From positions 62,001 through 126,000 of the forward strand of contig JAFTUI010000005.1 in assembly GCA_017466345.1 (NCBI GenBank): a stretch of DNA of 64,000 bases. Direction: 5' to 3'. The notes under the pieces were generated by a model. It did not search any database. It was given only the letters and a program-made list of their open reading frames with translations, and was not told the DNA's origin. Within the stretch, counting starts at the first letter, position 1. Each line of letters opens with the position of its first letter. Position numbers and translations under genes: made by a program. This DNA comes from Tidjanibacter sp. Its GTDB lineage: Bacteria > Bacteroidota > Bacteroidia > Bacteroidales > Rikenellaceae. Shown in pieces: positions 9,261 to 63,960 of the stretch.

Positions 9261-9307
9261 ACAGACCTCTCCCGCCTTCGGCACCCTCCCCTAACTTAGG
9301 GGAGGGA
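9261..9307 (+). repeat. R2 repeat copy 1
   Basis: Begins ACAGACCTCTCCCGCC and ends in the palindrome CCCCTAACTTAGGGG. The same sequence recurs at 41606-41651 (inverted), 41725-41755 (inverted, partial) and 63855-63960. Confidence 0.8.
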
Positions 9308-9324
9308 TAATAATTTTCAATTTT

Positions 9325-9408
9325 CGCAAATGCGAGTAAGCGAGGGCAGAGGGCACTTGTGCACTATGCCGAGCGGGAGCATTTTAGACAAAACAAAGTT
9401 TTGTCAAT
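9325..9408 (+). repeat. R1 repeat copy 1
   Basis: Contains the shared core CCGAGCGGGAGCATTTTAGA and AAATGCGAGTAAGCGAGGGC. Its variable hairpins are GCAC-TT-GTGC and GACAAAAC-AAA-GTTTTGTC, where other copies have CTGC-TT-GCAG and CAGCC-GAA-GGCTG. Followed directly by heptamer reiteration (R5). Confidence 0.8.
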
Positions 9409-10330
9409 TCTCAATTCTCAACTCTCCATTCTCCCAAGTGCCACGCATCATTGCGCCATCGGAGCGAACAAAGAGCCCTTCGCCCTCGCGCAAACCCTCG
9501 TACCAATAACCCCTCCACCACGAGCCATCCGCCCAGCGGTAGGTGCCAAATCCGTGTCGCACACCATCGAAGAGTTCGCCCTCCCACGAGTCGCCATTGG
9601 GTAGCTCTTCGACCTCCCAACGATAGAGAGAGTATCTCTCGGTGGTGGGGTAGGGGTCGGTGGGCACACCATTCTTGAAGTTGCCATAGTAGGTCACCTC
9701 GCCCAAAGAGTTGTAGAGCGTGCCTATACCGTTGGGCACTCCGCCCTCGAAGTACCCCACAAAGCGAGTGCTACCCTCGGCACCTTGGAGCCAACAACCC
9801 TCCGCAGTAACCACAATGGCACCATAGCCCTCCATCTGACCATTCGAGAGGTTGCCATAGAGGATTTGATTGTCGAAGTGGGTGGCACCTATACCATAAC
9901 GCTCGCCATTCTCCCACTCGCCTATGTAGTACACGCCGCTATCCCACGCAAACGAGCCATAACCATCGCGCACTCCGCCCAGCATCTCGCCATAGTAGCA
10001 ACCATCATCGTAGGTGTGATAGTGGTAGTCGGCAGCGGGAGCCCCCTCGCCACTCCAATAGGCGGCAATGTCGGGCGCAAATGGACGGAAGTGCTCTGCC
10101 AAGATGTGCTGAGCACGAGGCTCTCCACCCTCCGCCGCAAGACGCATAAAGTGGAGCCACTCGGTGGGGTTTATGGCTGTGCCCCAGCCATAGCGATAGC
10201 ATTGAGCTGCGTTGAACTGGGCGGTGGTGTTGCCACCGTGAGCAGCAGAGAGATAATCGCTGAGCACCTGCGCCGAAACGCCCTTCGCTACGCACGCGCA
10301 TATAATAAATATAAGTATAAATCGCCTCAT
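9404..10330 (-). CDS. Secreted Sel1/MORN-repeat protein
   Basis: 308 residues from the ATG at 10330, which gives the signal peptide MRRFILIFIICACVAKGVSA; a longer frame from 10381 is ruled out because the likely promoter (10349-10382) would lie inside it. A Sel1-like segment (AAQCYRYGWG...LAAEGGEPRAQHILAEHF) is followed by MORN repeats such as YYGEMLGGVRDGYGSF, YYIGEWENGERYGIG and WEGELFDGVRHGFGTY. MORN repeats are structural; no enzymatic role is visible. The last codons (GELRIEN, stop) are encoded by heptamer repeat R5, so the repeat forms the 3' end of the gene. Confidence 0.8.
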   Translation of the reverse strand: MRRFILIFIICACVAKGVSAQVLSDYLSAAHGGNTTAQFNAAQCYRYGWGTAINPTEWLHFMRLAAEGGEPRAQHILAEHFRPFAPDIAAYWSGEGAPAADYHYHTYDDGCYYGEMLGGVRDGYGSFAWDSGVYYIGEWENGERYGIGATHFDNQILYGNLSNGQMEGYGAIVVTAEGCWLQGAEGSTRFVGYFEGGVPNGIGTLYNSLGEVTYYGNFKNGVPTDPYPTTERYSLYRWEVEELPNGDSWEGELFDGVRHGFGTYRWADGSWWRGYWYEGLREGEGLFVRSDGAMMRGTWENGELRIEN

Positions 10331-24204: not shown

Positions 24205-24560
24205 CCTATAACTCGCTCGCTTCTATGCGCTTTTACAAAAATACATATAACGGGTGCTTTTTGCACCAAAATTCAGAGAGCGGACTCCTTATTTACGCTT
24301 AGTAAACTGCGGAGCCCGCTCCTTCTTTTGGCACAAAAATCCCTCCGTTCTCTGCGTTTTTACCGCTTGGGAGAAATCCCATCACAAAAGAGGCGTTACG
24401 CCTCCGCCTATAAATCGCTCGCTTATCTGCATTTTTTCAAAAACACATATAACGCGCGTCTGCTGCGTTATACTTCGATAAGCGGCTTCCTCATTTGCGT
24501 TAAGCAAACTGCGGAGCCGCTTTCTCGTATGCCTTGCATCCATTGCGTTCTCTGTGTTTT
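24205..24560 (+). repeat. 202-bp tandem repeat with covarying hairpins
   Basis: Two units, exactly 202 bp apart: CCTATAA-TCGCTCGCTT at 24205 and 24407, ACATATAACG after each, and hairpins at 24278-24321 and 24480-24522. The inner part TTTAC/GTAAA of the hairpin becomes TTTGC/GCAAA in the last copy, and the outer stems differ but still pair. CGTTCTCTG recurs at 24346 and 24546. No gene is supported from 24112 to 24642. Confidence 0.75.
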
Positions 24561-24565
24561 TGTCT

Positions 24566-24615
24566 AAGGCTTATAGGGCATATAAGGCATATAGGTCTTA
24601 TAGGGCTTATGGGAG
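24566..24615 (+). repeat. R4-type 9-bp word array
   Basis: CTTATAGGG, CATATAAGG, CATATAGGT, CTTATAGGG, CTTATGGGA: degenerate 9-bp words after GTCTAAGG, a partial R4 core. Confidence 0.6.
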
Positions 24616-24642
24616 GACTGAGAGATAAGGGAGTGTGGATTC

Positions 24643-26642: not shown

Positions 26643-26714
26643 CAATTGACCAGCCTTTGGCTGCTCTAAAATGCTCCCGCTCGGCATAGTCTGCAAGCAG
26701 CCCCCGCCCTCGCT
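26643..26714 (-). repeat. R1 repeat copy 2 with flanking heptamers
   Basis: Inverted copy with TCTAAAATGCTCCCGCTCGG; the AAATGCGAGTAAG end is missing. GAATTGA heptamers (as TCAATTC) continue to 26745, next to the yraN stop. The loop of the CAGCC hairpin differs (TTT instead of TTC). Confidence 0.8.
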
Positions 26715-26754
26715 CAATTCTCAATTCTCAATTCTCAATTCTCAAGTCCCCCCT

Positions 26755-27123
26755 CTACCAACGTAGGTTGGCTGCATCGGGGATGTAGTCGATGGTGTAG
26801 GAGCCGTCATCGTGTTCCACAACAGCCATAAAGTCGAGCCACACCTCCGCCTCTATGGCGTGCATCTGAACGTAGTGGTTTATCGCCTTCGTGAGATTGC
26901 GAATCTTCTTGCTCGTGAGTGCCTCCTCGGGCGTGGTTAGCGACCCGATATGGCGTGTCTTGACCTCCACGAAGTGGTAGTGACCCTCGTTAGTGAGGGT
27001 CACAAGGTCAATCTCGTGGGGCGGGGTGCGCCAATTGCGCTCGACAACAACGTGACCGTGCTGTCGGAGCCACTCCATTGCCGCCTTCTCGCCCTCGGCA
27101 CCTATGCGTAGCGTGTCGCCCAT
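26755..27123 (-). CDS. YraN family (UPF0102) putative endonuclease-fold protein
   Basis: 122 residues, the family's usual size. Motifs: GAEGEKAAMEWLRQHGHVVVERNWR, then EIDLVT and HYHFVEVKTR, which keep the restriction-endonuclease-like E-D-ExK arrangement, and the C-terminal ALTSKKIRNLTKA. The role is unknown in most bacteria. It starts 15 bp after the pepE stop, so the two are probably co-transcribed. Confidence 0.9.
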   Translation of the reverse strand: MGDTLRIGAEGEKAAMEWLRQHGHVVVERNWRTPPHEIDLVTLTNEGHYHFVEVKTRHIGSLTTPEEALTSKKIRNLTKAINHYVQMHAIEAEVWLDFMAVVEHDDGSYTIDYIPDAANLRW

Positions 27124-33962: not shown

Positions 33963-33990
33963 CAAGGATAGTAGGGAAGTTCGAGAGATG

Positions 33991-34273
33991 TCTTTTTTTC
34001 GGGGAGGTGTGGGGCTCTCCGAAGGAGAGTGGCAGACGAAATGGTAGCCCACTCAAACTCGTTTGAAGGTGGGCTGGCAATTCGACAGCCAGACTATCTG
34101 CGAAGATAGTCACACCTCACCGCAAAGGCGTCAGAGTGACGCTCAAAGTGCAGGTGGCTCCGAAGCCACTCCGAAGCCACTCCGAAGCCACTCCGAAGCA
34201 AAGCGGTAGGTAGAACCACTATTGGTTGGTGCACTAAAAGTTTTTGGTTCCGCTTTTTACAAAAAGCGGAGAA
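33991..34273 (+). repeat. R3 structured element, copy A
   Basis: Outer stem GAGGTGTG (34004-34011) / CACACCTC (34111-34118) closes three hairpins: CTCTCC-GAA-GGAGAG, AGCCCAC...GTGGGCT, and ACTATCT-GCGA-AGATAGT. After it come GCGTCA-GAG-TGACGC, four CCACTCCGAAG direct repeats, and CCGCTTTTT-AC-AAAAAGCGG. Other copies at 37249 and 41869. No gene in 33963-34348. Confidence 0.85.
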
Positions 34274-34289
34274 TAAAAAACGGAGAAAA

Positions 34290-34320
34290 AATCCCCTGCC
34301 GAAATGTTAGGCAGGGGATT
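34290..34320 (-). terminator. Terminator of lpxC-lpxA
   Basis: 11-bp stem AATCCCCTGCC/GGCAGGGGATT with a 9-nt loop; on the minus strand it is followed by TTTTTTCTCC. Confidence 0.85.
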
Positions 34321-34348
34321 GTGTTATTATACAAGTGAATTTCCTCTA

Positions 34349-35149
34349 CTACTCGTCAGCGGCTACTGCTGCGGTGTTGTAGGGTTTGAGGATACCGCGT
34401 TTGGAGGAGCGGATGAATTCTACTACCTGGTTGCGGATTTCGCTCTCGGGGAACTGTGCCATAACGATGTCGCAAGCCATAGAGTAGGTGTGACCATCTT
34501 GGAAGAGCACACGGAAGATATCCTGAATCTGCTTAATCTCCTCGTTAGAGAACCCCCTGCGCCTCAAACCCAAGAAGTTGGCACCAACGTAGGTGATGGG
34601 GGTGTGGGCTGCCTTAACATAGGGAGGAACATCTTTGTTCACATAGGTATTGGCGGCAATCATTGCGTGGTCGCCGATGCGGCTGAACTGGTGAGCACCC
34701 GAGTGACCACCGAAGACCACATAGTTACCGAGTTCTACCTCGCCGGCGAGCGACACGTTATTTACGATTACGCAGTTGTTGCCGATTACGCAGTCGTGGG
34801 CGATGTGTGCGTAAGCCATCACGAGGTTGTTGGAGCCCATAACGGTCTTACCCTTAGCGTCCGTACCGCGGTTTACCGTGCAGCACTCGCGGAAGGTGTT
34901 GTTGTCGCCAATCTCGCAAGTGGTGTATTCGCCGTGGAATTTGAGGTCTTGGGGCACACCGCCGATAACAGCACCGCTGTGCACCTTGCAGTTTTTACCC
35001 ATACGGGTGCCTGCCATAACGCTGGCGTGAGGACCAATCCAACTGCCATCGCCAATTACTACATCGCCCTCGATGTATGCAAAGGGCTCTACCGTAACAT
35101 TCTCACCCAACTTTGCTTCGGGGTGGATATAAGCCAAATTACTAATCAT
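34349..35149 (-). CDS. lpxA: Acyl-ACP--UDP-N-acetylglucosamine O-acyltransferase
   Basis: 266 residues. Left-handed beta-helix visible as hexapeptide repeats (for example IGDGSWIGPHASVMAGTRMG, then NCVIVNNVSLAGEVELGNYVVFGGHSGAHQFSRIGDHA). First committed acylation of lipid A, on UDP-GlcNAc. In Bacteroidales it normally follows an lpxC-fabZ fusion; here it lies 36 bp after an unfused lpxC. Confidence 0.97.
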   Translation of the reverse strand: MISNLAYIHPEAKLGENVTVEPFAYIEGDVVIGDGSWIGPHASVMAGTRMGKNCKVHSGAVIGGVPQDLKFHGEYTTCEIGDNNTFRECCTVNRGTDAKGKTVMGSNNLVMAYAHIAHDCVIGNNCVIVNNVSLAGEVELGNYVVFGGHSGAHQFSRIGDHAMIAANTYVNKDVPPYVKAAHTPITYVGANFLGLRRRGFSNEEIKQIQDIFRVLFQDGHTYSMACDIVMAQFPESEIRNQVVEFIRSSKRGILKPYNTAAVAADE

Positions 35150-35185
35150 ACTCCTTAAACGTATATTCGTAGTACTTTATTATCT

Positions 35186-36094
35186 CTATTTCAAATTCTT
35201 CTCCAATAGCTGTGCCATTTGTGTATTGGCATAGTGTCCGGGGCGCAGAGCCTCAACGTGACCTCGGATGCGTCTGCCGAGCAGTGCTAAGTCGCCGAGT
35301 ATGTCGAGCAACTTGTGACGTGCAATCTCGTTCTCGAAACGTAGAGGTTGGTGGCTCAGGTAGCCCCTCTCAACCTCAATATCCTCCCTGCCAAAGGTCT
35401 TGCAGATGCGCTTCTTGGTGCTCTCCGAGATGGGTTTTTCCACTACCACCATAGCACTCTCCACCGAGCCGCCCTTGATGAGTCCCAACTTCAACAGCAA
35501 CTCAATCTCGTGGAGGAATACAAATGTGCGGCAGGGTGCTATCTCCTCGCGGTAGTTTACCGAGTCATCATAGCGGTGCTGCTGCACACCCACCACCGTA
35601 GAGTTATAGTCCACCGTAACATTCACAGAGTACTCCTCGGCAGGCGTGATAACCACCCTCACACCCTTCTTGGGAATCTCGAAGAGGAACTCCTCTTCCA
35701 CCTCGAACCACTTGCGCTCGGCATCTTGCTCCACAGTGCCAACCCTCTCAATCTCGGCAGCGTAAGCCCTTGCCGAGCCATCCATAATGGGAGTCTCGGG
35801 AGCGTCTATCTCTATGAGTGCATTGTCGATGCCCATTGTCCAGAGGGCGGAAAGAATGTGCTCTATGGTCGATACTTTTGCCTTACCGTCCTTGATGGTC
35901 GTACCCCTCGAAGTGTCACATACATTGTGCGCCAATGCTGCCACTTCGGGAGCCCCTTTGAGATCCACTCGGCGGAATACAATACCCCTATCGGCCTCCG
36001 CAGGGCACACCTTCATCGTTACCAACTCGCCGGTGTGGAGTCCCTTGCCACTGAATGATATTACTTCGGCAATAGTTCTTTGTTTGTTGGACAT
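35186..36094 (-). CDS. lpxC: UDP-3-O-acyl-N-acetylglucosamine deacetylase, unfused
   Basis: 302 residues. Zinc-dependent second step of lipid A synthesis. Motifs: SFSGKGLHTG at the N-terminus, STIEHILSALWTMGIDNALIEID (zinc His), and ARHKLLDILGDLALLGR (second His and the Asp). Length equals the single-domain enzyme; the C-terminal FabZ dehydratase found fused in many Bacteroidetes is absent (protein ends MAQLLEKNLK), while a separate FabZ is at 61327. Operon with lpxA. Confidence 0.97.
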   Translation of the reverse strand: MSNKQRTIAEVISFSGKGLHTGELVTMKVCPAEADRGIVFRRVDLKGAPEVAALAHNVCDTSRGTTIKDGKAKVSTIEHILSALWTMGIDNALIEIDAPETPIMDGSARAYAAEIERVGTVEQDAERKWFEVEEEFLFEIPKKGVRVVITPAEEYSVNVTVDYNSTVVGVQQHRYDDSVNYREEIAPCRTFVFLHEIELLLKLGLIKGGSVESAMVVVEKPISESTKKRICKTFGREDIEVERGYLSHQPLRFENEIARHKLLDILGDLALLGRRIRGHVEALRPGHYANTQMAQLLEKNLK

Positions 36095-36131
36095 TATGTT
36101 GTTTTCCTTAAAATTCTATTTTTTTGAACCA

Positions 36132-36169
36132 CAAAGGTAATCAAATTTTCAATAAAAGTACTATCTTTG
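36132..36169. promoter_or_regulatory. Divergent -7 boxes between lpxC and the TonB-like gene
   Basis: Minus strand TACCTTTG (36132-36139) 38 bp above lpxC; plus strand TATCTTTG (36162-36169) 25 bp above the TonB-like start. Neither has a clear -33 box. Confidence 0.5.
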
Positions 36170-36193
36170 TGTGAATTGTGGTATTTTTGCGCT

Positions 36194-36982
36194 ATGGAAC
36201 AACGCCAACATAACCAAAAGACGAGCCGCCCCCGACTCAACCTGCCCTACTCACGGAAGAGGGTAGATGTGGGTGTTTGGGCGTACGACCATAGGGTGGC
36301 AATTTTGGTTACAGTGGTGGCGTATGTATTCTTTGGGGTGGCGTTTGTGGCTGCCGATATTGCCATCTCTCGCAAAAATTCGCAAACCGAGATATTGATG
36401 GACTTCGCCGACCTCGAAGAGTTGCAAAAGGAGTTGGAACGAGCACAAGAGCTCAACCGACTGCTCAACGAACGCTACGAGGAGAGCCCCACCACCAACC
36501 GCATCTCCAACGAGAACGCACTCAATGAGAGCCTCGAAGACCACCGCACAAATGCCCGCGAAATCTATGCCGAGGCAGACGAGGTGCAACAACGCATACG
36601 CGACAATGCAGCCGACTACGCGCTGGGACTTGATAGAGAACGCGAAATTCTCGACCAACACTACGAAGGCGAGAAGATCGAAAACCGCAAGGTAAGAGGC
36701 AATGTCACGGTGGCGTACTCGCTCTCGGAGCCTGTGCGCTACGCCTTGAAGATGCCTGTGCCAGCCTATATGTGCGAGGGGGGTGGCGATGTGGTGGTCG
36801 ATATTGTGGTCAATACCTCTGGCGATGTTGTGGAGTGCAAAATTAACGATGCGCTCTCGGCAAAGAACAACTGCCTGCGGGAGGCGGCACTCTCCAAAGC
36901 TGGCGAGTCGCTCTTCAATGCCGACCCTGCGGCACCTGCACGACAGCGAGGGACGATTGAGTATACCTTCATCGCCCAATAG
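36194..36982 (+). CDS. TonB-like protein: single-pass membrane, coiled coil, TonB C-terminal-like domain
   Basis: 262 residues from the ATG at 36194; the frame's earlier TTG overlaps the -7 box. A basic N-terminus is followed by one transmembrane segment (ILVTVVAYVFFGVAFVAADIAI), a long charged coiled-coil stretch (about residues 65-160) rich in Glu and Arg, and a C-terminal ~80 residues with PAYMCEGGGDVVVDIVVNTSGDVVECKIN, the TonB C-terminal pattern. Lacks the usual Pro/Lys spacer. ExbB/ExbD are not adjacent. It may energise an outer-membrane receptor or link layers of the envelope; inference. Confidence 0.7.
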   Translation: MEQRQHNQKTSRPRLNLPYSRKRVDVGVWAYDHRVAILVTVVAYVFFGVAFVAADIAISRKNSQTEILMDFADLEELQKELERAQELNRLLNERYEESPTTNRISNENALNESLEDHRTNAREIYAEADEVQQRIRDNAADYALGLDREREILDQHYEGEKIENRKVRGNVTVAYSLSEPVRYALKMPVPAYMCEGGGDVVVDIVVNTSGDVVECKINDALSAKNNCLREAALSKAGESLFNADPAAPARQRGTIEYTFIAQ

Positions 36983-37162
36983 CGGGCGGCTGATTTCTGA
37001 GGGCGATTTCTGCGTTACGCTTGCGCTCGAAATGCTCATTTACTATTGTAAACTCCGCTTTCTCGCGCTTCGCAAGCCTTGAACTCGCCTCACATAAATC
37101 ACCCGCAGGGTTGGGGGTGGTGGCACAAAAATCCCTCCACAAAACCCACTCGCGGTTTTAGG

Positions 37163-37231
37163 GTCTAACGTCAATAGTCCTAAGGCTTATAGGGCTTATA
37201 GGGCATATAAGGCATATGGGGCATATATAAG
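37163..37231 (+). repeat. R4 core plus 9-bp word array
   Basis: Core GTCAATAGTCCTAAG, then CTTATAGGG, CTTATAGGG, CATATAAGG, CATATGGGG. The gap 36983-37446 also has a diverged relative of the rpoC hairpin core (ATTTACTATTGTAAACTCCG at 37039) and R3 copy B. Confidence 0.75.
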
Positions 37232-37248
37232 TAGGAGTTTGAGAGAAG

Positions 37249-37430
37249 TCTTTTTTCGGGGAGGTGTGAGGCTCTCCGAAGGAGAGTGGCGGGCGAAGTG
37301 TCAGCCCACTCAAACTCGTTTGAAAGTGGGCTGGCAATTCGACTGCTAAACTATCTGCAAAGATAGTCACACATCCCCGCAAGGGCTACACTAAAAGTTT
37401 TTGGTTCCGCTTTTTACAAAAAGCGGAGAA
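37249..37430 (+). repeat. R3 structured element, copy B (internally deleted)
   Basis: Outer stem GAGGTGTG (37261-37268)/CACACATC with the same three hairpins (middle stem AGCCCACT/AGTGGGCT). The ~100-nt part with the CCACTCCGAAG repeats is missing. The terminal hairpin ends 17 bp before the antiporter start. Confidence 0.85.
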
Positions 37431-37446
37431 AGAGAGAAAAAACGAT

Positions 37447-38955
37447 ATGATAATAACAACCGGAAACATATTGCTTGTTGGCTCGATAATTCTCTTTGTG
37501 AGTATTTTGGCGGGCAAGGCGAGCAGCCGTTTTGGTGCTCCGATGCTGTTATTCTTCCTGCTTGTGGGAATGGCATTTGGCACCGATGGTGTGGGTATTG
37601 AGTTCGACAACTTTGCTGCTGTGCAGTTTGTGGGTATGCTTTCGCTGAGTATTATCCTCTTCTCGGGCGGTATGGACACTTCCTTTGACGAGGTTCGACC
37701 GGTGTTGAAGGAGGGTGTGGTGTTGGCTACTTTGGGTGTGGTTCTCACAGCACTTTTCACGGGCTCTATCATCTACTTTGTGAGTGGTTGGCTGGGTGCT
37801 CCGATACCTTTCACGCTGGCACTGCTCATTGCAGCGGTTATGTCCTCTACGGATTCGGCTTCGGTCTTTGCCATATTGCGCTCCAAGCGTGTGGGACTCA
37901 AAGAGAATTTGCGCCCGCTGTTGGAGTTGGAGAGCGGTAGTAACGACCCTATGGCTTACATCCTCACGATTATGCTCATACAGGTCAATATGGGCGAGGG
38001 TGGCTCGGTGGGTGCTGTGGCTCTTACCTTCCTCAAACAGATGGGCATTGGTGCGCTGTCGGGCTATCTGCTCGGCAAGGGTGCGGCAATGGTTGTAAAC
38101 CGTATCAACATCGGCAATAAATCGCTCTATTCGGTGCTGTTGCTCTCGCTGGTGTTCTTCACAGCGTCTTTTACCGACCTGCTGGGGGGCAACGGCTACT
38201 TGGCGGTCTATATTGCGGGTATTGTTATGGGAAACCAGAGGTTGAGCCATAAGAAGACACTTGCCACCTTCCTCGATGGTGTGACGTGGCTGATGCAGAT
38301 TGTGATGTTCTTGATGCTGGGGCTGCTTGTCAATCCACACGAACTGAAAGATGTGGTCTTTATAGGTTTGATTGTCGGTGCGGCGATGATTTTCCTTACT
38401 CGCCCGCTGGCTGTGTGGATTACCCTGCTGCCACTAAGGAGCAAACTGTCTAATAAGGCTCGCCACTATGTTTCGTGGGTGGGATTGAGGGGTGCGGCAC
38501 CTATCTTGTTTGCCACCTACCCCAAGTTGGCAGGTCTCGATCCCGACAACACCATCTTCAACATCGTCTTCTTCATAACCATCTTCTCGCTCATTGTTCA
38601 GGGCACTTCGGTGGGTAGTATGGCAAACTTCTTGGGAGTGTCGGAGGCGAGCCCTGAGAAGGGCTTTGATATAGACCTGCCCGATGAGGTCAAGGCGGCA
38701 CTCACGGAGGTCGATATTATTGAGGGCGGAGCCAGGGATGGCGCACTATTGAAAGATGTTAAGTTGCCCGAAAAGACCCTTGTGATGATGATTCGCAGAG
38801 GCGATAAATATATTGTTCCCAACGGCTCCACAACGCTCCATAGGGGCGATAAACTGCTCCTTATCTCGGAGGAGATACAGGCACAGACGCCCCAAATTCA
38901 ACATAGGGAGCACATTGTGCTGTGGGAAAGCATAAAACAGTTTATTAAGCGATGA
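37447..38955 (+). CDS. NhaP-type K+ (or Na+)/H+ antiporter with RCK_C domain
   Basis: 502 residues, about 12 membrane helices (residues 5-395) of the CPA1 family: GMAFGTDGVGIEFDNF, then VMSSTDSASVFAIL and ELESGSNDPMAYILT carry the conserved ion-binding acidic residues. The C-terminal ~100 residues form a cytosolic TrkA-C-like domain (DVKLPEKTLVMMIRRGDKYIVPNGSTTLHRGDKLLLIS), as in K+/H+ antiporters of the CvrA/NhaP2 type. Its stop overlaps the start of the MscS gene (ATGA). Confidence 0.9.
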   Translation: MIITTGNILLVGSIILFVSILAGKASSRFGAPMLLFFLLVGMAFGTDGVGIEFDNFAAVQFVGMLSLSIILFSGGMDTSFDEVRPVLKEGVVLATLGVVLTALFTGSIIYFVSGWLGAPIPFTLALLIAAVMSSTDSASVFAILRSKRVGLKENLRPLLELESGSNDPMAYILTIMLIQVNMGEGGSVGAVALTFLKQMGIGALSGYLLGKGAAMVVNRINIGNKSLYSVLLLSLVFFTASFTDLLGGNGYLAVYIAGIVMGNQRLSHKKTLATFLDGVTWLMQIVMFLMLGLLVNPHELKDVVFIGLIVGAAMIFLTRPLAVWITLLPLRSKLSNKARHYVSWVGLRGAAPILFATYPKLAGLDPDNTIFNIVFFITIFSLIVQGTSVGSMANFLGVSEASPEKGFDIDLPDEVKAALTEVDIIEGGARDGALLKDVKLPEKTLVMMIRRGDKYIVPNGSTTLHRGDKLLLISEEIQAQTPQIQHREHIVLWESIKQFIKR

Positions 38956-40184
38956 TGAAGGAGAAAACATTTCTGCTCGATTGGATGAGCACTCTGCTCG
39001 ATTGGTTGGGGCTGAACTCTGCTGACGGAGGCTATAAAGCACTCTTTGCAACCCTTGTGGTTCTGGTCTGCTGCTTTGTGGTGTGGTGGCTGTTGCGCTA
39101 CCTGCTGCTCAGGGCGCACCGCTTGGGAAGGTATGTAGATTCGCGCTTGGAGGTGATATTCGATAGGGCAAACCTCAATAAGATAGCCCTTATGGCGGCG
39201 GTCTTTATGTTCTATATACTCCTGCCACTCGCCTTCGACCCCGCATCTTCGGTGGGTATCTTTGTGCGTAAGGCTCTCGATGTGCTCATCGTGTGGATGT
39301 TGGCAAGTTTTGCCAATTCGGTCGTAAGGACTGTTTTTATGCTCATATACCACAAACGTAAGACCAAAGATGCGCCACTGAAAGGCTTTATGCAGGTCAT
39401 ACAGATTGTGGTGTGGGTTGTGGCAGCGATAGTCATCATCGCCATCCTTATTAACAAGTCGCCCACGAAACTTTTTACCGGTTTGGGTGCTTCGTTGGCA
39501 GTGTTGAGCTTTGTGTTTAAGGATTCCATCCTCAATCTGGTGTCGGGCATCCTGCTGTCGAGCGACAAGATGGTCAAGGTGGGCGATTGGATAGAGATGC
39601 CTTCGGCAGGCATTGATGGTACGGTCATAGATATGACACTCAACACCGTGAAGGTCAGGGGGTGGGATAATACCATATCCAACGTGAGCCCCTATACGCT
39701 CACTTCGGGCACCTTCAAGAATTGGCAGGGTATGTTCTCCTCGGGAGGTAGGCGTATTGCCCGCTATGTGGAGATAGATATTAACACCGTGAAGTTCTGC
39801 ACCGAAGAGCTACTCGAAAGAGTCGGCAAGTTGGAGGTTATGCGTGAGTATATCGACTCGCTCCCTGAGCCCCGCTTGCAGACCACCAACCTCGAACTCC
39901 TCAGGGTATATATTGAGCGTTATATGGAGGCTCAACCTTGGCTCAACCGCGAGATGCTCCATATGGTGCGACAGTTGCAGTCGAGCGATACGGGTGTGCC
40001 CTTGCAGGTCTATGCTTTTACGGCTACAACCGTGTGGGTGGAGTATGAGCGCATACAAGCGGCACTCTTTGAGCATATTATGGCCATTGTCCCACTCTTT
40101 GAGATAAAAATCTTCCAGCGTCCTTCGGGCGGCGACTTGGATAAACGTGCCACGATAGAGGATATTGTCAAGTGGGAGGCGTAA
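38952..40184 (+). CDS. MscS-family mechanosensitive channel (YbdG-like)
   Basis: 410 residues. Several N-terminal helices, then the pore-lining TM3 and beta domain: LFTGLGASLAVLSFVFKDSILNLVSGI with KVGDWIEMPSAGIDGTVIDMTLNTVKVRGWDN. The long C-terminal part resembles YbdG/Ynai-type members. Opens on osmotic downshift. Overlaps the antiporter by 4 bp, so translation is coupled; both genes handle osmotic or ionic stress. Confidence 0.9.
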   Translation: MMKEKTFLLDWMSTLLDWLGLNSADGGYKALFATLVVLVCCFVVWWLLRYLLLRAHRLGRYVDSRLEVIFDRANLNKIALMAAVFMFYILLPLAFDPASSVGIFVRKALDVLIVWMLASFANSVVRTVFMLIYHKRKTKDAPLKGFMQVIQIVVWVVAAIVIIAILINKSPTKLFTGLGASLAVLSFVFKDSILNLVSGILLSSDKMVKVGDWIEMPSAGIDGTVIDMTLNTVKVRGWDNTISNVSPYTLTSGTFKNWQGMFSSGGRRIARYVEIDINTVKFCTEELLERVGKLEVMREYIDSLPEPRLQTTNLELLRVYIERYMEAQPWLNREMLHMVRQLQSSDTGVPLQVYAFTATTVWVEYERIQAALFEHIMAIVPLFEIKIFQRPSGGDLDKRATIEDIVKWEA

Positions 40185-40690
40185 TAGTTAGTTTCACAGG
40201 TCATCGCCCCGATAAAATTGCGGGCTATGGTGCCTCGCCACGCACGGTGGAGGTAGCACTCCGCAAAGCTCTCGCCGCAGAGATTTTGCGACTTGCGAGG
40301 GAGGGCGCAAAAACCTTCGTGAGCGGAATGGCGCCGGGGGTTGATTTGTGGGCGGCAGACGAGGTGCTCCGACTGAGAACAGAAGGACGTATTGGTGCCG
40401 ATGTAAGACTACGCTTGGCGGTGCCCTACGAGAATTTTGAGCGCTCCTTTGGCGCCGAGTGGCGACCTCTCTACAATGCCATCTTGGAGAGGGCAGATGA
40501 TGTGGTCTATCTCTCGCAGGGCTACTACCGAGGCTGCTTCAATAGGCGCAACGACTACCTTGTGGATGTTGCCGATGTAGTGGTCGCCTACTACGAGGGC
40601 GAAGAGGGTGGCACGCGCTACACACTGCGCAGAGCAGAGAAGAGAGGACGGAGTGTGATAAACCTCCACCAGAGAGAACTTTTTGACTAA
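40172..40690 (+). CDS. SLOG-family protein (YpsA/DUF1273-like)
   Basis: 172 residues. Begins VSFTGHRPDK, the family signature, and contains the Rossmann-like pattern TFVSGMAPGVDLWAADEVLRL and NRRNDYLVDVADVVVAYYEG typical of SLOG (LOG/DprA superfamily) proteins that may bind nucleotide ligands. The GTG start at 40172 lies inside the MscS gene (13-bp overlap). A sensor of nucleotide signals next to ion transporters is attractive but inferred. Confidence 0.8.
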   Translation: MGGVIVSFTGHRPDKIAGYGASPRTVEVALRKALAAEILRLAREGAKTFVSGMAPGVDLWAADEVLRLRTEGRIGADVRLRLAVPYENFERSFGAEWRPLYNAILERADDVVYLSQGYYRGCFNRRNDYLVDVADVVVAYYEGEEGGTRYTLRRAEKRGRSVINLHQRELFD

Positions 40691-40712
40691 CAAACAAATA
40701 CATTTAATCGTT

Positions 40713-41465
40713 ATGTTCGGTATCTTCAAGAAAAAGACCCCTCTACGGGAATTGTTGGAGGGCTTCTATGACATCCATAGCCATCTGCTGTGGGGTGTTG
40801 ATGATGGCTGCCGCGATGCGGAGCACACATTGGCGATCGATGCCGAACTTGCCGAATTGGGGTTTAAGGGCGCCTACCTTACACCCCACATCATCTACGG
40901 ACTCTATGGCAACAACACCGAGGAGGGGCTGCGCAAACGCTTCCAAGAGATGCCCGATGGTATGAAGTTGGAGGTGCGTTTGGCTGCCGAATATAACCTC
41001 GATGAACGCTTTATGGAACACGTTGAGGCGGCAGACAATCTGCTCACGATGGGCGGCAACCACCTGCTTGTGGAGTTCGGTCTGGGTACTACGCGCGTGG
41101 ATGCCCACCTTGGCGACCTCTTCGAGGCAGCACTCAGGGGCAAGAATATCATCATCGCCCATCCCGAACGCTACGCCTTCCTCGCCGAAGAGCGCAACTA
41201 CCACGAACTCGAAAAACTGACCTCCAAAGGGTATAAACTCCAACTTAACCTCCTCTCGCTGGCGGGACTGCACGGCGACAAAGCAAAACGTGTTGCCGAA
41301 GAGATGTTGTTGTCGGGCAAATACACCTTTGTGGGTAGCGATGTCCATTCAAGAGTCTATACCCAAGTGCTCCGCGAGGGCACAATCTCCCCCAAAGTCG
41401 TAGAACCTCTGAGAGAGTTGATGGAGAATAACAAGCAGTTATTTGGTCCAACGTCTAAGGTTTAA
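40713..41465 (+). CDS. CpsB/CapC-family PHP tyrosine phosphatase
   Basis: 250 residues from ATG 40713 (MFGIFKKKTPLRELL); the frame is open from 40683 but the longer N-terminus is not family-like. PHP metal motifs: YDIHSHLLWGVDDGC, IAHPERY and VGSDVHS. In Gram-positives and Bacteroides such enzymes dephosphorylate capsule-synthesis tyrosine kinases; no capsule genes are adjacent here. The last codons (GPTSKV, stop) run into the GTCTAA-type R4 sequence. Confidence 0.88.
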   Translation: MFGIFKKKTPLRELLEGFYDIHSHLLWGVDDGCRDAEHTLAIDAELAELGFKGAYLTPHIIYGLYGNNTEEGLRKRFQEMPDGMKLEVRLAAEYNLDERFMEHVEAADNLLTMGGNHLLVEFGLGTTRVDAHLGDLFEAALRGKNIIIAHPERYAFLAEERNYHELEKLTSKGYKLQLNLLSLAGLHGDKAKRVAEEMLLSGKYTFVGSDVHSRVYTQVLREGTISPKVVEPLRELMENNKQLFGPTSKV

Positions 41466-41466
41466 C

Positions 41467-41600
41467 GTCTAACGTCAATAGTCCTAAGAGTTCCATGGGT
41501 TCCAGGGATTCCAGGGATTTCAGGGATAACAGGGGTTGCAGGGGGAATTCTTCCTTGTTATCCTTGCAACCCTTGTAACCCTTGTAACCCTTGTAACCCC
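41467..41600 (+). repeat. R4 core plus two 9-bp word arrays
   Basis: Core GTCAATAGTCCTAAG, then words GTTCCATGG, GTTCCAGGG, ATTCCAGGG, ATTTCAGGG, ATAACAGGG, GTTGCAGGG. A second array in the other orientation follows: GCAACCCTT, GTAACCCTT (x2), GTAACCCCT. More words (ACAAGGGTA and similar) occur at 41815-41860. Confidence 0.8.
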
Positions 41601-41605
41601 TGCAT

Positions 41606-41755
41606 CCCTCCCCTAAGTTAGGGGAGGGTGCCGAAGGCGGGAGAGGTCTGTAAAGAAGTTCCTCCCCTACGACAGGGGAGGATAGGAGGGGTGGTCGAAA
41701 TTGCGCTCGGCGTCCTCGCCGAGCAGGGAGGGTGCCGAAGGCGGGAGAGGTCTGT
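41606..41755 (-). repeat. R2 repeats, two inverted copies
   Basis: 41606-41651 (CCCCTAAGTTAGGGG palindrome to GGTCTGT) and a partial copy 41725-41755. Between them is a further palindrome CTCCCCT-ACGAC-AGGGGAG (41662-41680). No gene from 41466 to 42154. Confidence 0.75.
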
Positions 41756-41868
41756 TCGTCTTGCCACGACTGCCGTAGGCAGGCGGTTGGCATCTACCTA
41801 TCTTGTTTTTTTGCAGGGATAACAAGGGTAGCAGGTGTAACAAGGATTACAGGGGAGTTTGAGAGGAG

Positions 41869-42140
41869 TCTTTTTTCGGGGAGGTGTGAGGCTCTCCGAA
41901 GGAGAGTGGCGGGCAAAAGAATAGCCCTCTCAAACTTGTTTGAAAGAGGGCTATTGTTTTGGCTGCTAAACTATCTGCGAAAGATAGCCACACCTTACCG
42001 CAAAGGCGTCAGAGTGACGCATTTGTGCAAGTGGCTCCGAAGCCACTCCGAAGCCACTCCTAAGCAAGACGGTAGGTAGTACCACTATTGGTTGGTGCAC
42101 GAAAAGTTTTTGGTTCCGCTTTTTACAAAAAGCGGAGAAG
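41869..42140 (+). repeat. R3 structured element, copy C
   Basis: Outer stem GAGGTGTG (41881-41888) / CACACCTT. The middle hairpin is AATAGCCCTCT/AGAGGGCTATT, differing from copy B by a paired A-T to T-A change. CCACTCCGAAG repeats and CCGCTTTTT-AC-AAAAAGCGG are present. Confidence 0.85.
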
Positions 42141-44909: not shown

Positions 44910-44921
44910 ATATCTTTTTTT

Positions 44922-44980
44922 GTCTAACCTCAATAGTCCTGAGTCTTTAAGGTCTTTAAGGACTTTAAGGACTTTAAGGG
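44922..44980 (+). repeat. R4 core plus 9-bp word array
   Basis: Core CTCAATAGTCCTGAG, then TCTTTAAGG (x2), ACTTTAAGG (x2), between rlmB and porX. Confidence 0.75.
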
Positions 44981-51284: not shown

Positions 51285-51290
51285 TGGTGC

Positions 51291-51380
51291 TGTTAGGGGT
51301 GCCGCCCTGTGTGGGCTGGCTGAGATGATACCCTCCGAACCTGATATGTATAATGACAGCGCAGGGAAACGGTGAGATTG
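51291..51380 (+). promoter_or_regulatory. TPP riboswitch (THI element)
   Basis: Aptamer landmarks in order: AGGGGTGCC, the P3 stem GCCC...GGGC, GGCTGAGATGATACCCTCC, GAACCTGATATG, and the closing GCAGGGAAAC. Binding of thiamine pyrophosphate should favour the terminator at 51447-51486 and switch off thiM and the genes after it. Confidence 0.95.
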
Positions 51381-51446
51381 TGTGGCAAATGGCGAGGCGC
51401 ACGGTGGTGGCCTTTGCAGGGAGCCAAAAATGATTAAACGTGGTTG

Positions 51447-52301: not shown

Positions 52302-53594
52302 ATGAAATACGACATTAAATCTGCCCTAAGGCTCTACCTTGTTACCGACCGCCCCCTATCGCTCGGACGACCTCTCGAAGAGGTTGTCAGCGAGGCTGTT
52401 GCGGGTGGTGTTACAATGGTGCAACTAAGGGAGAAGGAGTGCCCTACGGGCGAGTTTATAGCCCTCGCACGAAGGCTCAAAGCGCTCCTTGCACCTCTCG
52501 GAGTTCCCCTTATAATCAACGATAGGGTGGATGTGGCTCTGGCAGCCGATGCCGATGGCGTACACATAGGGCAGAGCGATATGCACTACGAGGATGCACG
52601 CCGACTGCTGGGCAGGGATAAAATCATTGGGCTCTCGGTGGAAAATTTCAGTGATCTGGAACGGGCAAATTCTTTGGATGTCGATTATGTTGGCATCTCG
52701 CCCGTCTATGGCACCCCCACCAAGAGCGACACTGCTGAGCCTTTCGGCTTGGAAGGTTTACGGAGGGCTGTGGCACTCTCCACCCATCCTACGGTGGCTA
52801 TTGGCGGTATGAACGCCCAAACCATTGGCGCAGTGATGGCTACGGGCACCGATGGAGTGGCTGTGGTGTCGGCAATATGTTCTGCACCTTCGCCCCGCAA
52901 GGCTGCCGAAGAACTAAATGCGATTATCAATCAACAAACGGACAAAATTATGAGTTGGACCAAAGAGGTGTGGCAGAAGTCGCTGCCCATATATGAGCGC
53001 ATCATTCGCCACCCATTCATCACAGAACTTGCGGATGGCACCCTCGCAACAGAGCGTTTTGCACGCTATCTTGCACAAGACGAAATCTACATCAAAAACT
53101 ACGGCGAGGAGATGTTCCTGCTTGCCGATATGCTTCCCGATGAGGCTATGCGCAAGATGTTCCGCGCCTATGCCGAGGAGGGTATGGCTGCCGAGGCGGC
53201 TATGCACCAGATGCTCATCGACAACTTCGGCATCGACACAGCCGTTGAGCCCTCGGAGGTAACTGCGGGCTATATGGCTCACACTCGCAAATACATCAAT
53301 ACGGGAAATCCTGCACTCGCTTTGGCGGCAATGCTACCTTGTATGTGGATCTACAACGAGGTGGGACTCTACATCTACAACCACCGCAACCCCAACCCTA
53401 ACCCATACTCAGAGTGGGTGGCAACCTACGCTTCGGAGGATTTTACCGAGGGTACTCGTCAGATTTTGGAGATGTGCGACCGCTACGCAGAGGAGGCTAC
53501 GCCCGAGATGCGTGAGGAGATGACCAGAGCCTACCTTGTAGCTGCCGAATATGAGTGGGCATTCTGGAATTGGGGATACCACGGGGAGAATTGA
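52302..53594 (+). CDS. thiE: Thiamine phosphate synthase fused to TenA aminopyrimidine hydrolase
   Basis: 430 residues. Residues 1-212 are ThiE (MVQLREKECPTGEF, DRVDVALAADADGVHIGQ, GISPVYGTPTKSD, VAIGGMN), which joins HMP-PP and thiazole phosphate. Residues 218-430 are TenA (SWTKEVWQKSLPIYERI), with the catalytic Cys in AMLPCMWIYNEVG and YEWAFWNWGY at the end. The joint NAIINQQTDKIM has no stop and an internal ATG at 52950 could make free TenA. The 3' end (GEN, stop) is heptamer repeat. Confidence 0.93.
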   Translation: MKYDIKSALRLYLVTDRPLSLGRPLEEVVSEAVAGGVTMVQLREKECPTGEFIALARRLKALLAPLGVPLIINDRVDVALAADADGVHIGQSDMHYEDARRLLGRDKIIGLSVENFSDLERANSLDVDYVGISPVYGTPTKSDTAEPFGLEGLRRAVALSTHPTVAIGGMNAQTIGAVMATGTDGVAVVSAICSAPSPRKAAEELNAIINQQTDKIMSWTKEVWQKSLPIYERIIRHPFITELADGTLATERFARYLAQDEIYIKNYGEEMFLLADMLPDEAMRKMFRAYAEEGMAAEAAMHQMLIDNFGIDTAVEPSEVTAGYMAHTRKYINTGNPALALAAMLPCMWIYNEVGLYIYNHRNPNPNPYSEWVATYASEDFTEGTRQILEMCDRYAEEATPEMREEMTRAYLVAAEYEWAFWNWGYHGEN

Positions 53595-53695
53595 GAATTG
53601 AGAATTGAGAATTGAAAAAATCCCATATCTCCCATTTCTCTCATATCTCCCATTTCTCTCATTAGCCTTAGGACTATTGACGTTAGACATTAGAC
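53592..53695 (-). repeat. Heptamer run, 9-bp word array and R4 core
   Basis: GAATTGA x3 at the tenA end, then in inverted order the array GATATGGGA, GAAATGGGA, GATATGAGA, GAAATGGGA and the core CTTAGGACTATTGAC (53667-53688). Confidence 0.75.
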
Positions 53696-55497: not shown

Positions 55498-55582
55498 GGC
55501 AAATGCGAGTAAGCGAGGGCAGAGGCTGCTTGCAGACTATGCCGAGCGGGAGCATTTTAGAGCAGCCGAAGGCTGGTCAATT
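55498..55582 (+). repeat. R1 repeat copy 6 with heptamer arrays
   Basis: Full copy, flanked on both sides by the heptamer (ATTGAGA/GTTGAGA run 55583-55645). The hairpin is GAGCAGCC-GAA-GGCTGGTC. The gap to secDF (55498-55933) shows no gene; more heptamers at 55768-55796. Confidence 0.85.
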
Positions 55583-55824
55583 GAGAGTTGAGAGTTGAGA
55601 GTTGAGAATTGAGAATTGAGAGTTGAGAATTGAGAATTGAAAATTTTGGTGCGCCACGATGTTTCGTGGCGCAATTTTTATTTACCCCTAAGCCCCACTA
55701 TCAAAGATGGATTGGTCAAAGATTAATCGGATACTCTTTGAAAAGTTTTGGTTTTGGAAAGGGAAATTCTCAATTCTCAATTCTCAATTTTCAATTCGAA
55801 TGTTGTGTTTTCGGAAAAAAGGAT

Positions 55825-62810: not shown

Positions 62811-63088
<278 letters not shown>

Positions 63089-63210
63089 GCTACGCTGCCA
63101 AAATTGGAGCCAACAACTGATTTTGTCGGTTTGCAAGGACGCCCGCGGCAGCGAAGGGATGGACAAGCGTAGCGCAGTCAATCCCGCAGACACCATTGCA
63201 AACCTCTTTT

Positions 63211-63225
63211 GCGGAGAGAGAGGGA
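63211..63225 (-). repeat. Inverted fragment of a tRNA-Ser 3' end in the spacer
   Basis: GCGGAGAGAGAGGGA, the complement of the tRNA 3' end, followed by an inverted piece AAGGGTATCGA of the tRNA-Ser(GGA) variable arm. Confidence 0.6.
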
Positions 63226-63359
63226 TAAACAAGGGTATCGAAGTTATTCTCCACGTTACTGTGGACGGGGCATCCATCGTTGGTCGTTTGCGACCAACAA
63301 CCAAGTCCCCCTTTGCCAAAGGGGGATTTAGGGGGAATGTAAGAATAGATGGGATTTTT

Positions 63360-63380
63360 AATCCCTCTCTCTTCGCCCCG
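63360..63380 (+). repeat. Direct fragment of a tRNA-Ser 3' end in the spacer
   Basis: AATCCCTCTCTCTTCGCCCC, one base different from the 3' end of tRNA-Ser(TGA) and its flank. Near it is the common CCCCCTTT-GCC-AAAGGGGG palindrome (63307). Confidence 0.65.
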
Positions 63381-63397
63381 AGCGATTAAGGAGAAGG

Positions 63398-63614
63398 AGG
63401 GATTACTGCGCCGCCTGGGGCGGCTTGTGATCCCTCCTTCCCCTTAATGCTCAAAGATTTTTTCGACAGCGCCCCTACGGGGCTAACTTTTTTTATGCGT
63501 CAACCGCTTTTATGAGCAAGCTCCCAAGCGGTTGGCGCATAAAAAAACGACTACCCAATTGGGTAGTCGCTGTCGAAAAAATCTTCGGGGCGGAGAGAGA
63601 GGGATTCGAACCCT
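63398..63614 (-). repeat. Right arm of the tRNA-Ser inverted repeat
   Basis: Mirror of the left arm with a few paired and unpaired changes (for example AATC to AATT in the first loop). It provides the terminator for tRNA-Ser(GGA). Confidence 0.85.
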
Positions 63615-63678
63615 CGATACCCTTTTGAGGTATACGCACTTTCCAGGCGCGCTCCTTAAACCACTCGGTCACCTCTCC
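63591..63678 (-). tRNA. tRNA-Ser (GGA)
   Basis: 88 nt class II. On the minus strand acceptor GGAGAGG/TCTCTCC (last pair G-U), anticodon loop CTGGAAA gives GGA, long variable arm, T-arm GGGTTCGAATCCC. Faces tRNA-Ser(TGA). Confidence 0.96.
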
Positions 63679-63819
63679 TTTTATATGTCATCACGCCTCA
63701 TTGGGCGCGAAAGCGGGCGCAAGATAAGAATAATTTTTGGTTTTCAGCTACTATTGGCGTTTTTTTATTTCTCGCACCCCATTCCACACCCATAGGTATT
63801 AAAAAAGACACCTGAGTTT

Positions 63820-63853
63820 TTATAGGGCGTATAAGGCTTATAGGGCATATAGG
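63820..63853 (+). repeat. 9-bp word array
   Basis: TTTATAGGG, CGTATAAGG, CTTATAGGG, CATATAGG, without a recognisable R4 core. Rest of 63679-63854 shows nothing else. Confidence 0.6.
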
Positions 63854-63854
63854 C

Positions 63855-63960
63855 GACAGACCTCTCCCGCCTTCGGCACCCTCCCCTAACTTAGGGGAGG
63901 GTTAAGTGTATTGCTCCCCTAAGTTAGGGGAGTTGTCGCAAAGCGACTGAGGGGTCTGTC
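63855..63960 (+). repeat. R2 repeat, full form with terminal inverted repeats
   Basis: Bounded by GACAGACC (63855) and GGTCTGTC (63960). Two CCCCTAA/TTAGGGG palindromes inside (63891 and 63915 regions) and TCGC-AAA-GCGA. Suggests the other copies are partial. Confidence 0.75.

Follow-up and report, generated by a model that had tools for sequence, protein, structure and literature searches.

Repetitive extragenic palindromes (REPs) are, in the passages that PMC3733652 devotes to them, short intergenic palindromes with a conserved tag (GTAG or CGTC) at one end and with variable, complementary stems that include G.T pairs, and they occur as single units or dimers, mainly between co-directional or convergent genes; in the same passages, the CGTC repeats apparently have no dedicated transposase. 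The miniature inverted-repeat transposable element (MITE) BrickBuilt of Porphyromonas gingivalis is, in the corresponding part of PMC4596501, an intergenic multi-copy Bacteroidales repeat with a strong fold and no Rfam match, in which tandem repeats are combined with a leader and a tail. Here we describe R3, a repeat with three copies (A, B and C) in a window of 64,000 nucleotides from Tidjanibacter sp., family Rikenellaceae (assembly GCA_017466345.1, contig JAFTUI010000005.1, positions 62,001 to 126,000, forward strand). R3 is a multi-copy, lineage-specific repeat that lies 3' of genes and whose fold has been maintained through compensatory changes.

R3 shares the above-described features of REPs, being intergenic and placed mainly between co-directional or convergent genes, and its nearest known kind is the tagged REP palindrome. 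There are clear differences, however. The tag of R3 is AAAAGTTTTTGG, and neither GTAG nor CGTC stands at the foot of the tail hairpin in the displayed contexts, whose tails had been pattern-selected for AAAAGTTTTTGG; the inner part CTTTTT-NN-AAAAAG does not vary; in Bacteroidales a cloverleaf is attached to the tail, and the REP passages of PMC3733652 describe none; and the Y1 transposase associated with GTAG repeats is absent from most tail-bearing genomes (13/18). BrickBuilt is comparable to R3 in style only and is set apart by its description as a 23-nt minisatellite with inverted ends, reported from P. gingivalis only, for which the part of PMC4596501 concerned describes neither a cloverleaf nor a AAAAGTTTTTGG tail. 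A literature search by titles and abstract starts, with most subscription journals outside its coverage, found no paper on the R3 motif.

A cloverleaf head and a tagged hairpin tail

Each R3 copy is a composite of a cloverleaf head of about 128 nt (an outer stem around three hairpins), a spacer module that may be missing, and a tail hairpin with the consensus AAAAGTTTTTGG-T-N4-CTTTTT-NN-AAAAAG. Copy A spans 33985-34273, copy B 37243-37430 and copy C 41863-42139, and the spacer is present in A and C only. That the three copies share one orientation and that each lies downstream of a plus-strand gene, as a first-pass annotation of the sequence had stated, holds for all of them: copy A lies between convergent genes (lipocalin-like and hexapeptide acyltransferase), as does copy C (CpsB/CapC-like and arginine deiminase family), and copy B lies between co-directional genes, upstream of a Na/H exchanger gene. 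The outer stem GAGGTGTG/CACACCTC, which had been described as common to the copies, is perfect in copy A but not in the other two, as the 3' arm has one mismatch in copy B (CACACATC) and one G.T pair in copy C (CACACCTT). The compensatory change in the middle hairpin is real, with AGCCCACT/AGTGGGCT in copy B being replaced by AGCCCTCT/AGAGGGCT in copy C. The spacer module (34127-34231 and 42006-42097) opens with a palindrome that varies between species with its pairing kept (GCGTCAGAGTGACGC vs GTGCCAGAGTGGCAC).

The compensatory changes extend far beyond this one hairpin. Among 18 heads of the same genome, 92.2% of the cells pair, two-sided changes occur in 17 of 49 pairs, and covariation reaches 0.269, as compared to 0.128 +/- 0.010 in shuffled alignments and no more than 0.116 when the partners are slid; a single one of the five measures, the count of additional pair types, shows no excess (35 vs 37.5 in shuffles). 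With relatives from several genera added (29 rows), pairing rises to 95.2%, two-sided changes affect 43 of 49 pairs, and covariation is 0.649 (shuffled 0.171 +/- 0.010, slid at most 0.106), in an alignment that was fitted to the model and is hence biased towards structure. Compensatory changes thus exceed the background in both alignments, which is the outcome of the statistical test that the first-pass annotation had proposed.

Independently of any alignment, the cloverleaf is the lowest-energy fold with RNA parameters in 39 of 48 heads, in contrast to 26 of 960 dinucleotide shuffles. All 48 heads are alike in their central tip, where C(TT or TC)G closes a short helix that, in the displayed folds, has a small bulge in its 3' side, and the remaining two loops are mostly GNA or GNRA. 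On the head-to-tail strand, 40 column events are G.T and 12 are A.C (p 1.3e-4; pairs from folds of both strands, 39 heads taken in), and among the pairs that are backed by folds of both strands there are 30 G.T and 7 A.C; head orientation was set by sequence for the genome's own copies and for most relatives by the following tail. This excess means that the fold matters on the head-to-tail strand, either as RNA or as single-stranded DNA of that strand. Together with the covariation it strongly supports selection on the folded form, as had been claimed from the three copies.

Rfam has no family for the structure. Rfam at the gathering threshold gave no match on any of the three copies in the 64-kb window; at E up to 1, in eleven loci, the heads showed only sub-threshold hairpin matches, e.g. 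MIR7696 with 32.8 of 83 bits (L035) and mir-2796 with 23.6 of 72 (L043). Matches of the tRNA model in the window overlap none of the three copies.

Copy number, range and placement

A blastn search with copy B gave 49 matches in its own genome, many of them to the tail only. Model R1, built from the 18 own-genome heads, found 21 heads in a strict whole-genome search, and the own-genome stretches examined contain 24 distinct heads, a copy on contig C28 being left out of the count because it duplicates one on contig C25. This locus is present on both contigs, and the assembly is here either partly duplicated or drawn from a second strain.

The head is found in Bacteroidales, the tail in several phyla, and R3 thus consists of two separable parts of different range. 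R1 matched 13 of 150 relatives, its own genome counted; R2, a model from the 29-row alignment, had matches in 53 of the 269 family genomes, spread over 7 of 22 genera (best 12 candidates per genome scored), and in 3 of 295 genomes sampled from the order, own counted, with filters in both searches that lose weak matches. Most displayed loci of genera g6 and g22 have a AAAGTTTTTGG-type hairpin tail behind the head (none is in view at L309), so the two parts travel jointly in at least three genera.

The tail pattern AAAAGTTTTTGGTN4CTTTTTACAAAAAG occurs in at least 111 stretches of genome contigs. Among the matches listed, the titles name Tidjanibacter, Rikenella, Millionella, Anaerotignum, Tyzzerella, Negativibacillus, Acutalibacter and Oscillibacter, and also Novacetimonas, Gluconobacter, Acidocella, a Rhodospirillales and a Cloacimonadota bacterium; the tail alone is thus found, within these matches, in Rikenellaceae, Clostridia, Acetobacteraceae and Cloacimonadota. 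Eighteen genomes picked for carrying the tail contain 2 to 113 copies, with zero in the reversed control, and the stem sequence varies by genome with complementarity kept. In a sample of 395 Bacteroidia genomes, the tail was present in its own genome and in 0 of the 394 others. It is abundant in Acetobacteraceae (L075 and L243-L272: Novacetimonas, Gluconobacter, Acidocella). The bacterial interspersed mosaic elements (BIMEs) of Escherichia coli combine two palindrome types in inverted pairs, and the Novacetimonas tails resemble them in forming at least 18 inverted pairs of two stem types, with a gap of 16 bp in 16 of 18 and of 15 and 17 bp in the others; these pairs differ from BIMEs in sequence and by the lack of a RAYT (REP-associated tyrosine transposase) match there, and their arrangement is unlike that of the window copies.

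In the own genome, with gene orientation scored by a purpose-made codon-based gene caller, the upstream gene is co-oriented for 42 of 45 tails, opposite for two, both more than 750 bp away, and not called for one, in a set that includes some entries from one intergenic region and the C25/C28 assembly duplicate. Between co-directional genes, 31 of these tails are sense and one is antisense, and 43 or 44 of the 45, depending on two doubtful calls, lie between co-directional or convergent pairs. Of 19 examined heads of relatives, an upstream gene was called for 17, of which 15 are sense, 12 of these between convergent genes. In tails of other genomes, namely the loci of the contig matches and of Acetobacteraceae, divergent placement is rare (9 of 118 scorable); of these tails, those of the Tidjanibacter-titled group show a sense bias of 21 to 8. 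Together with the G.T excess, the co-oriented upstream genes suggest that the head folds as RNA.

Comparison of orthologous sites shows that R3 copies are lineage-specific insertions. The exchanger gene 3' of copy B is matched in 23 of the 24 genomes of the genus, own included. In five of the six closest relatives (81-84% identity), about 30 to 50 bases at most separate its start codon from the preceding stop; in the sixth, the locus is broken by a contig end and carries a different short repeat. R3 was not found in any readable upstream stretch of the gene in the relatives, two loci being unreadable at the start codon. At a second, tail-only site, between metK and a hydrolase gene, the tail hairpin is present in G000, G023, G005 and G019, always sense, with differing stems or added modules, and the site is empty in six of ten close genomes (G022, G020, G009, G014, G013, G018), which may reflect repeated insertion or an old insertion followed by loss. 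Copy numbers also vary widely among species within one genus.

Which mechanism may spread the repeat and keep its fold?

We favour, with moderate confidence, the reading that R3 is a non-autonomous, REP-like mobile repeat of two parts, the head and the AAAAGTTTTTGG-tagged tail, that is moved in trans and whose fold is kept in transcripts. It is preferred because it brings together the many copies, the covariation, the cloverleaf folding, the filled and empty sites, the sense placement, the G.T asymmetry and the BIME-like pairs of Novacetimonas. Mechanistically, an enzyme acting in trans, other than a Y1 (RAYT) transposase, would spread R3 by recognition of its hairpins. The inserted copy would be co-transcribed with the upstream gene and fold as RNA on the sense strand, and this would be the reason for the conservation of the fold; as a 3' untranslated or intercistronic structure it might protect the mRNA 3' end or separate the gene from the next one. 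An RNA-level role of the fold is probable. The earlier suggestion of a dispersed repeat that needs no protein is strongly supported, in that R3 is protein-less and mobile-like, and the two options offered for it, a non-coding RNA family or a mobile element, are not mutually exclusive.

Several observations weigh against this reading. The mobilising enzyme was not found among Y1 transposases, RVT_1 proteins or the genes near 190 tails. No obvious target duplication was seen by eye at the empty sites, where no systematic search for a duplication or a parent element was made. The filled and empty sites imply that no single copy is essential. The G.T test left nine of the 48 heads unused; the cloverleaf is predicted more often with DNA than with RNA parameters, in 46 rather than 39 of 48 heads (with DNA parameters also in 15 of 960 dinucleotide shuffles); and tails between co-directional genes outside the Tidjanibacter-titled group have no sense bias (16 sense, 23 antisense).

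The last two of these points, together with the patchy distribution of the tail over phyla, would be expected if R3 were a mobile palindrome of the REP or MITE type acting purely at the DNA level, with hairpins kept for an enzyme as single-stranded DNA and without any role in transcripts. The predominance of GNA or GNRA loops fits as well, as GNA loops are favoured in DNA. The sense placement in the own genome and in relatives argues against it, and so does the G.T excess on the sense strand, although single-stranded DNA of that strand would fit this excess, too, and we consider a purely DNA-level element rather unlikely, while taking it seriously. It is quite improbable that R3 is instead an immobile, vertically inherited family of cis-acting structured RNAs that regulates neighbouring genes: covariation, sense placement, occurrence in many genera and heads directly 3' of tRNA genes would agree with it, but the neighbours of the three window copies are unrelated, orthologous sites in close relatives are empty, copy number differs widely between species of one genus, and no conserved gene partner is apparent across species, as far as these were seen. 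A SINE-like (short interspersed nuclear element) RNA moving by reverse transcription is highly improbable, as the sense bias, the fixed module order, stuttered A-rich ends and one RVT_1 gene in the own genome stand against 10 of 18 tail-bearing genomes without an RVT_1 match, including G161 with 53 tails and G156 with 25, several of these being metagenome-assembled and maybe incomplete.

As to movers and vehicles, a RAYT origin was rejected, since PF01797 (Y1 transposase) is absent in 13 of 18 tail-bearing genomes, the own genome with 0 matches among them, and retro-mobility was rejected as RVT_1 is matched in only 8 of the 18. When 1178 open frames near 190 tails were compared all against all, the clusters were small, with at most 7 members, and no gene family recurred beside tails across phyla; a gene that co-travels with the tail was rejected. 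A phage or plasmid vehicle was dismissed after blastn with copy A found no match in either the phage or the plasmid collection; the tail pattern does occur in 8 viral contigs, whose flanks resemble Acetobacteraceae, Anaerotignum or Rikenella (by resemblance only). The weak match of Rfam Clostridiales-2 in L075 is a different hairpin and not the tail. An intrinsic terminator was rejected by eye, without a terminator scan, as there is no GC hairpin with a T-run in the head-to-tail direction.

Heads behind tRNA genes and neighbouring repeats

Table 1. R3 parts and related features in the window; copies A, B and C were among the model-building sequences.
Feature	Position	Strand	Remark
Copy A, cloverleaf head (T-run, outer stem, three hairpins)	33985..34127	+	model match 149.6 bits
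Copy A, spacer module, starts GGCGTCAGAGTGACGC, contains 11-bp tandem repeat	34127..34231	+	common to copy C (repeat families D7, D9)
Copy A, tail: CACTAAAAGTTTTTGG then hairpin CCGCTTTTTACAAAAAGCGG	34232..34273	+	repeat family D11
Other repeat modules preceding copy B, same insertion relative to related species	36983..37242	+	repeat families D2, D8; relatives compared
Copy B, cloverleaf head	37243..37384	+	model match 156.1 bits
Copy B, tail	37389..37430	+	repeat family D11, 100%
Copy C, cloverleaf head, carries compensatory change	41863..42005	+	model match 157.4 bits
Copy C, spacer module	42006..42097	+	D9, 95% to copy A over 111 nt
Copy C, tail	42098..42139	+	repeat family D11, 98%
Divergent cloverleaf, no tail, directly 3' of tRNA-Ser (62811-62897)	62897..63026	+	32.8 bits, E 7e-7
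Second divergent cloverleaf, no tail, directly 3' of other tRNA-Ser (63589-63678, minus)	63459..63589	-	38.1 bits, E 3e-8

Divergent heads directly behind tRNA genes are not restricted to this window, as such heads follow tRNA-Thr in G067 and G087, tRNA-Ser in G019, and tRNA-Val in G881, a genome of another family. No tail was seen at the tRNA-adjacent heads, and near four of the six the tRNA 3' end recurs in additional, imperfect copies (at most 4 differences) in either orientation, as at integration sites. This tail-less form may well have come first. In the window, the region 62811-63678 contains the two facing tRNA-Ser genes with a cloverleaf behind each, more palindromes between them, and imperfect tRNA 3'-end copies at about 63210 and 63357, and it looks like a site of repeated integration at tRNA ends.

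Other repeats lie in the window as well. Mosaic intergenic modules of TCTAACGTCAATAGTCCTAAGG and 9-bp TTATAGGGC-type arrays (24541-24628, 37157-37235, 41461-41507, 44916-44962, 63799-63868) stand ahead of several R3 copies. Tandem arrays of a 7-bp unit (CAATTCT / AGAATTG) lie between genes, in both orientations, at 9401-9437, 26711-26761, 53572-53618 and 55569-55657, and a palindromic module of about 50 nt (CCTCCCCTAACTTAGGGGAGG) is present at 9261-9310, 41604-41653 and 63856-63905 in copies that are 98-100% identical. An ordinary thiamine pyrophosphate (TPP) riboswitch (Rfam RF00059) lies at 51285-51384.

A strongly covarying structure that has no Rfam family and occurs in 53 of 269 genomes of one bacterial family would enlarge the catalogues of both RNAs and repeats. 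We only tentatively suggest, as a doubtful extension, that R3 represents a new class of mobile structured RNA, a sense-strand cloverleaf that settles behind tRNA and mRNA genes, and that the Rikenellaceae tail belongs to a third superfamily of tagged palindromes besides GTAG and CGTC, which crosses phyla and would be served by an undiscovered enzyme. As the signature of the tail is very specific and patchy over several phyla, a comparison of tail-bearing with tail-free genomes should lead to the enzyme that acts on it, and the copies behind tRNA genes may reveal the origin of such dispersed elements.

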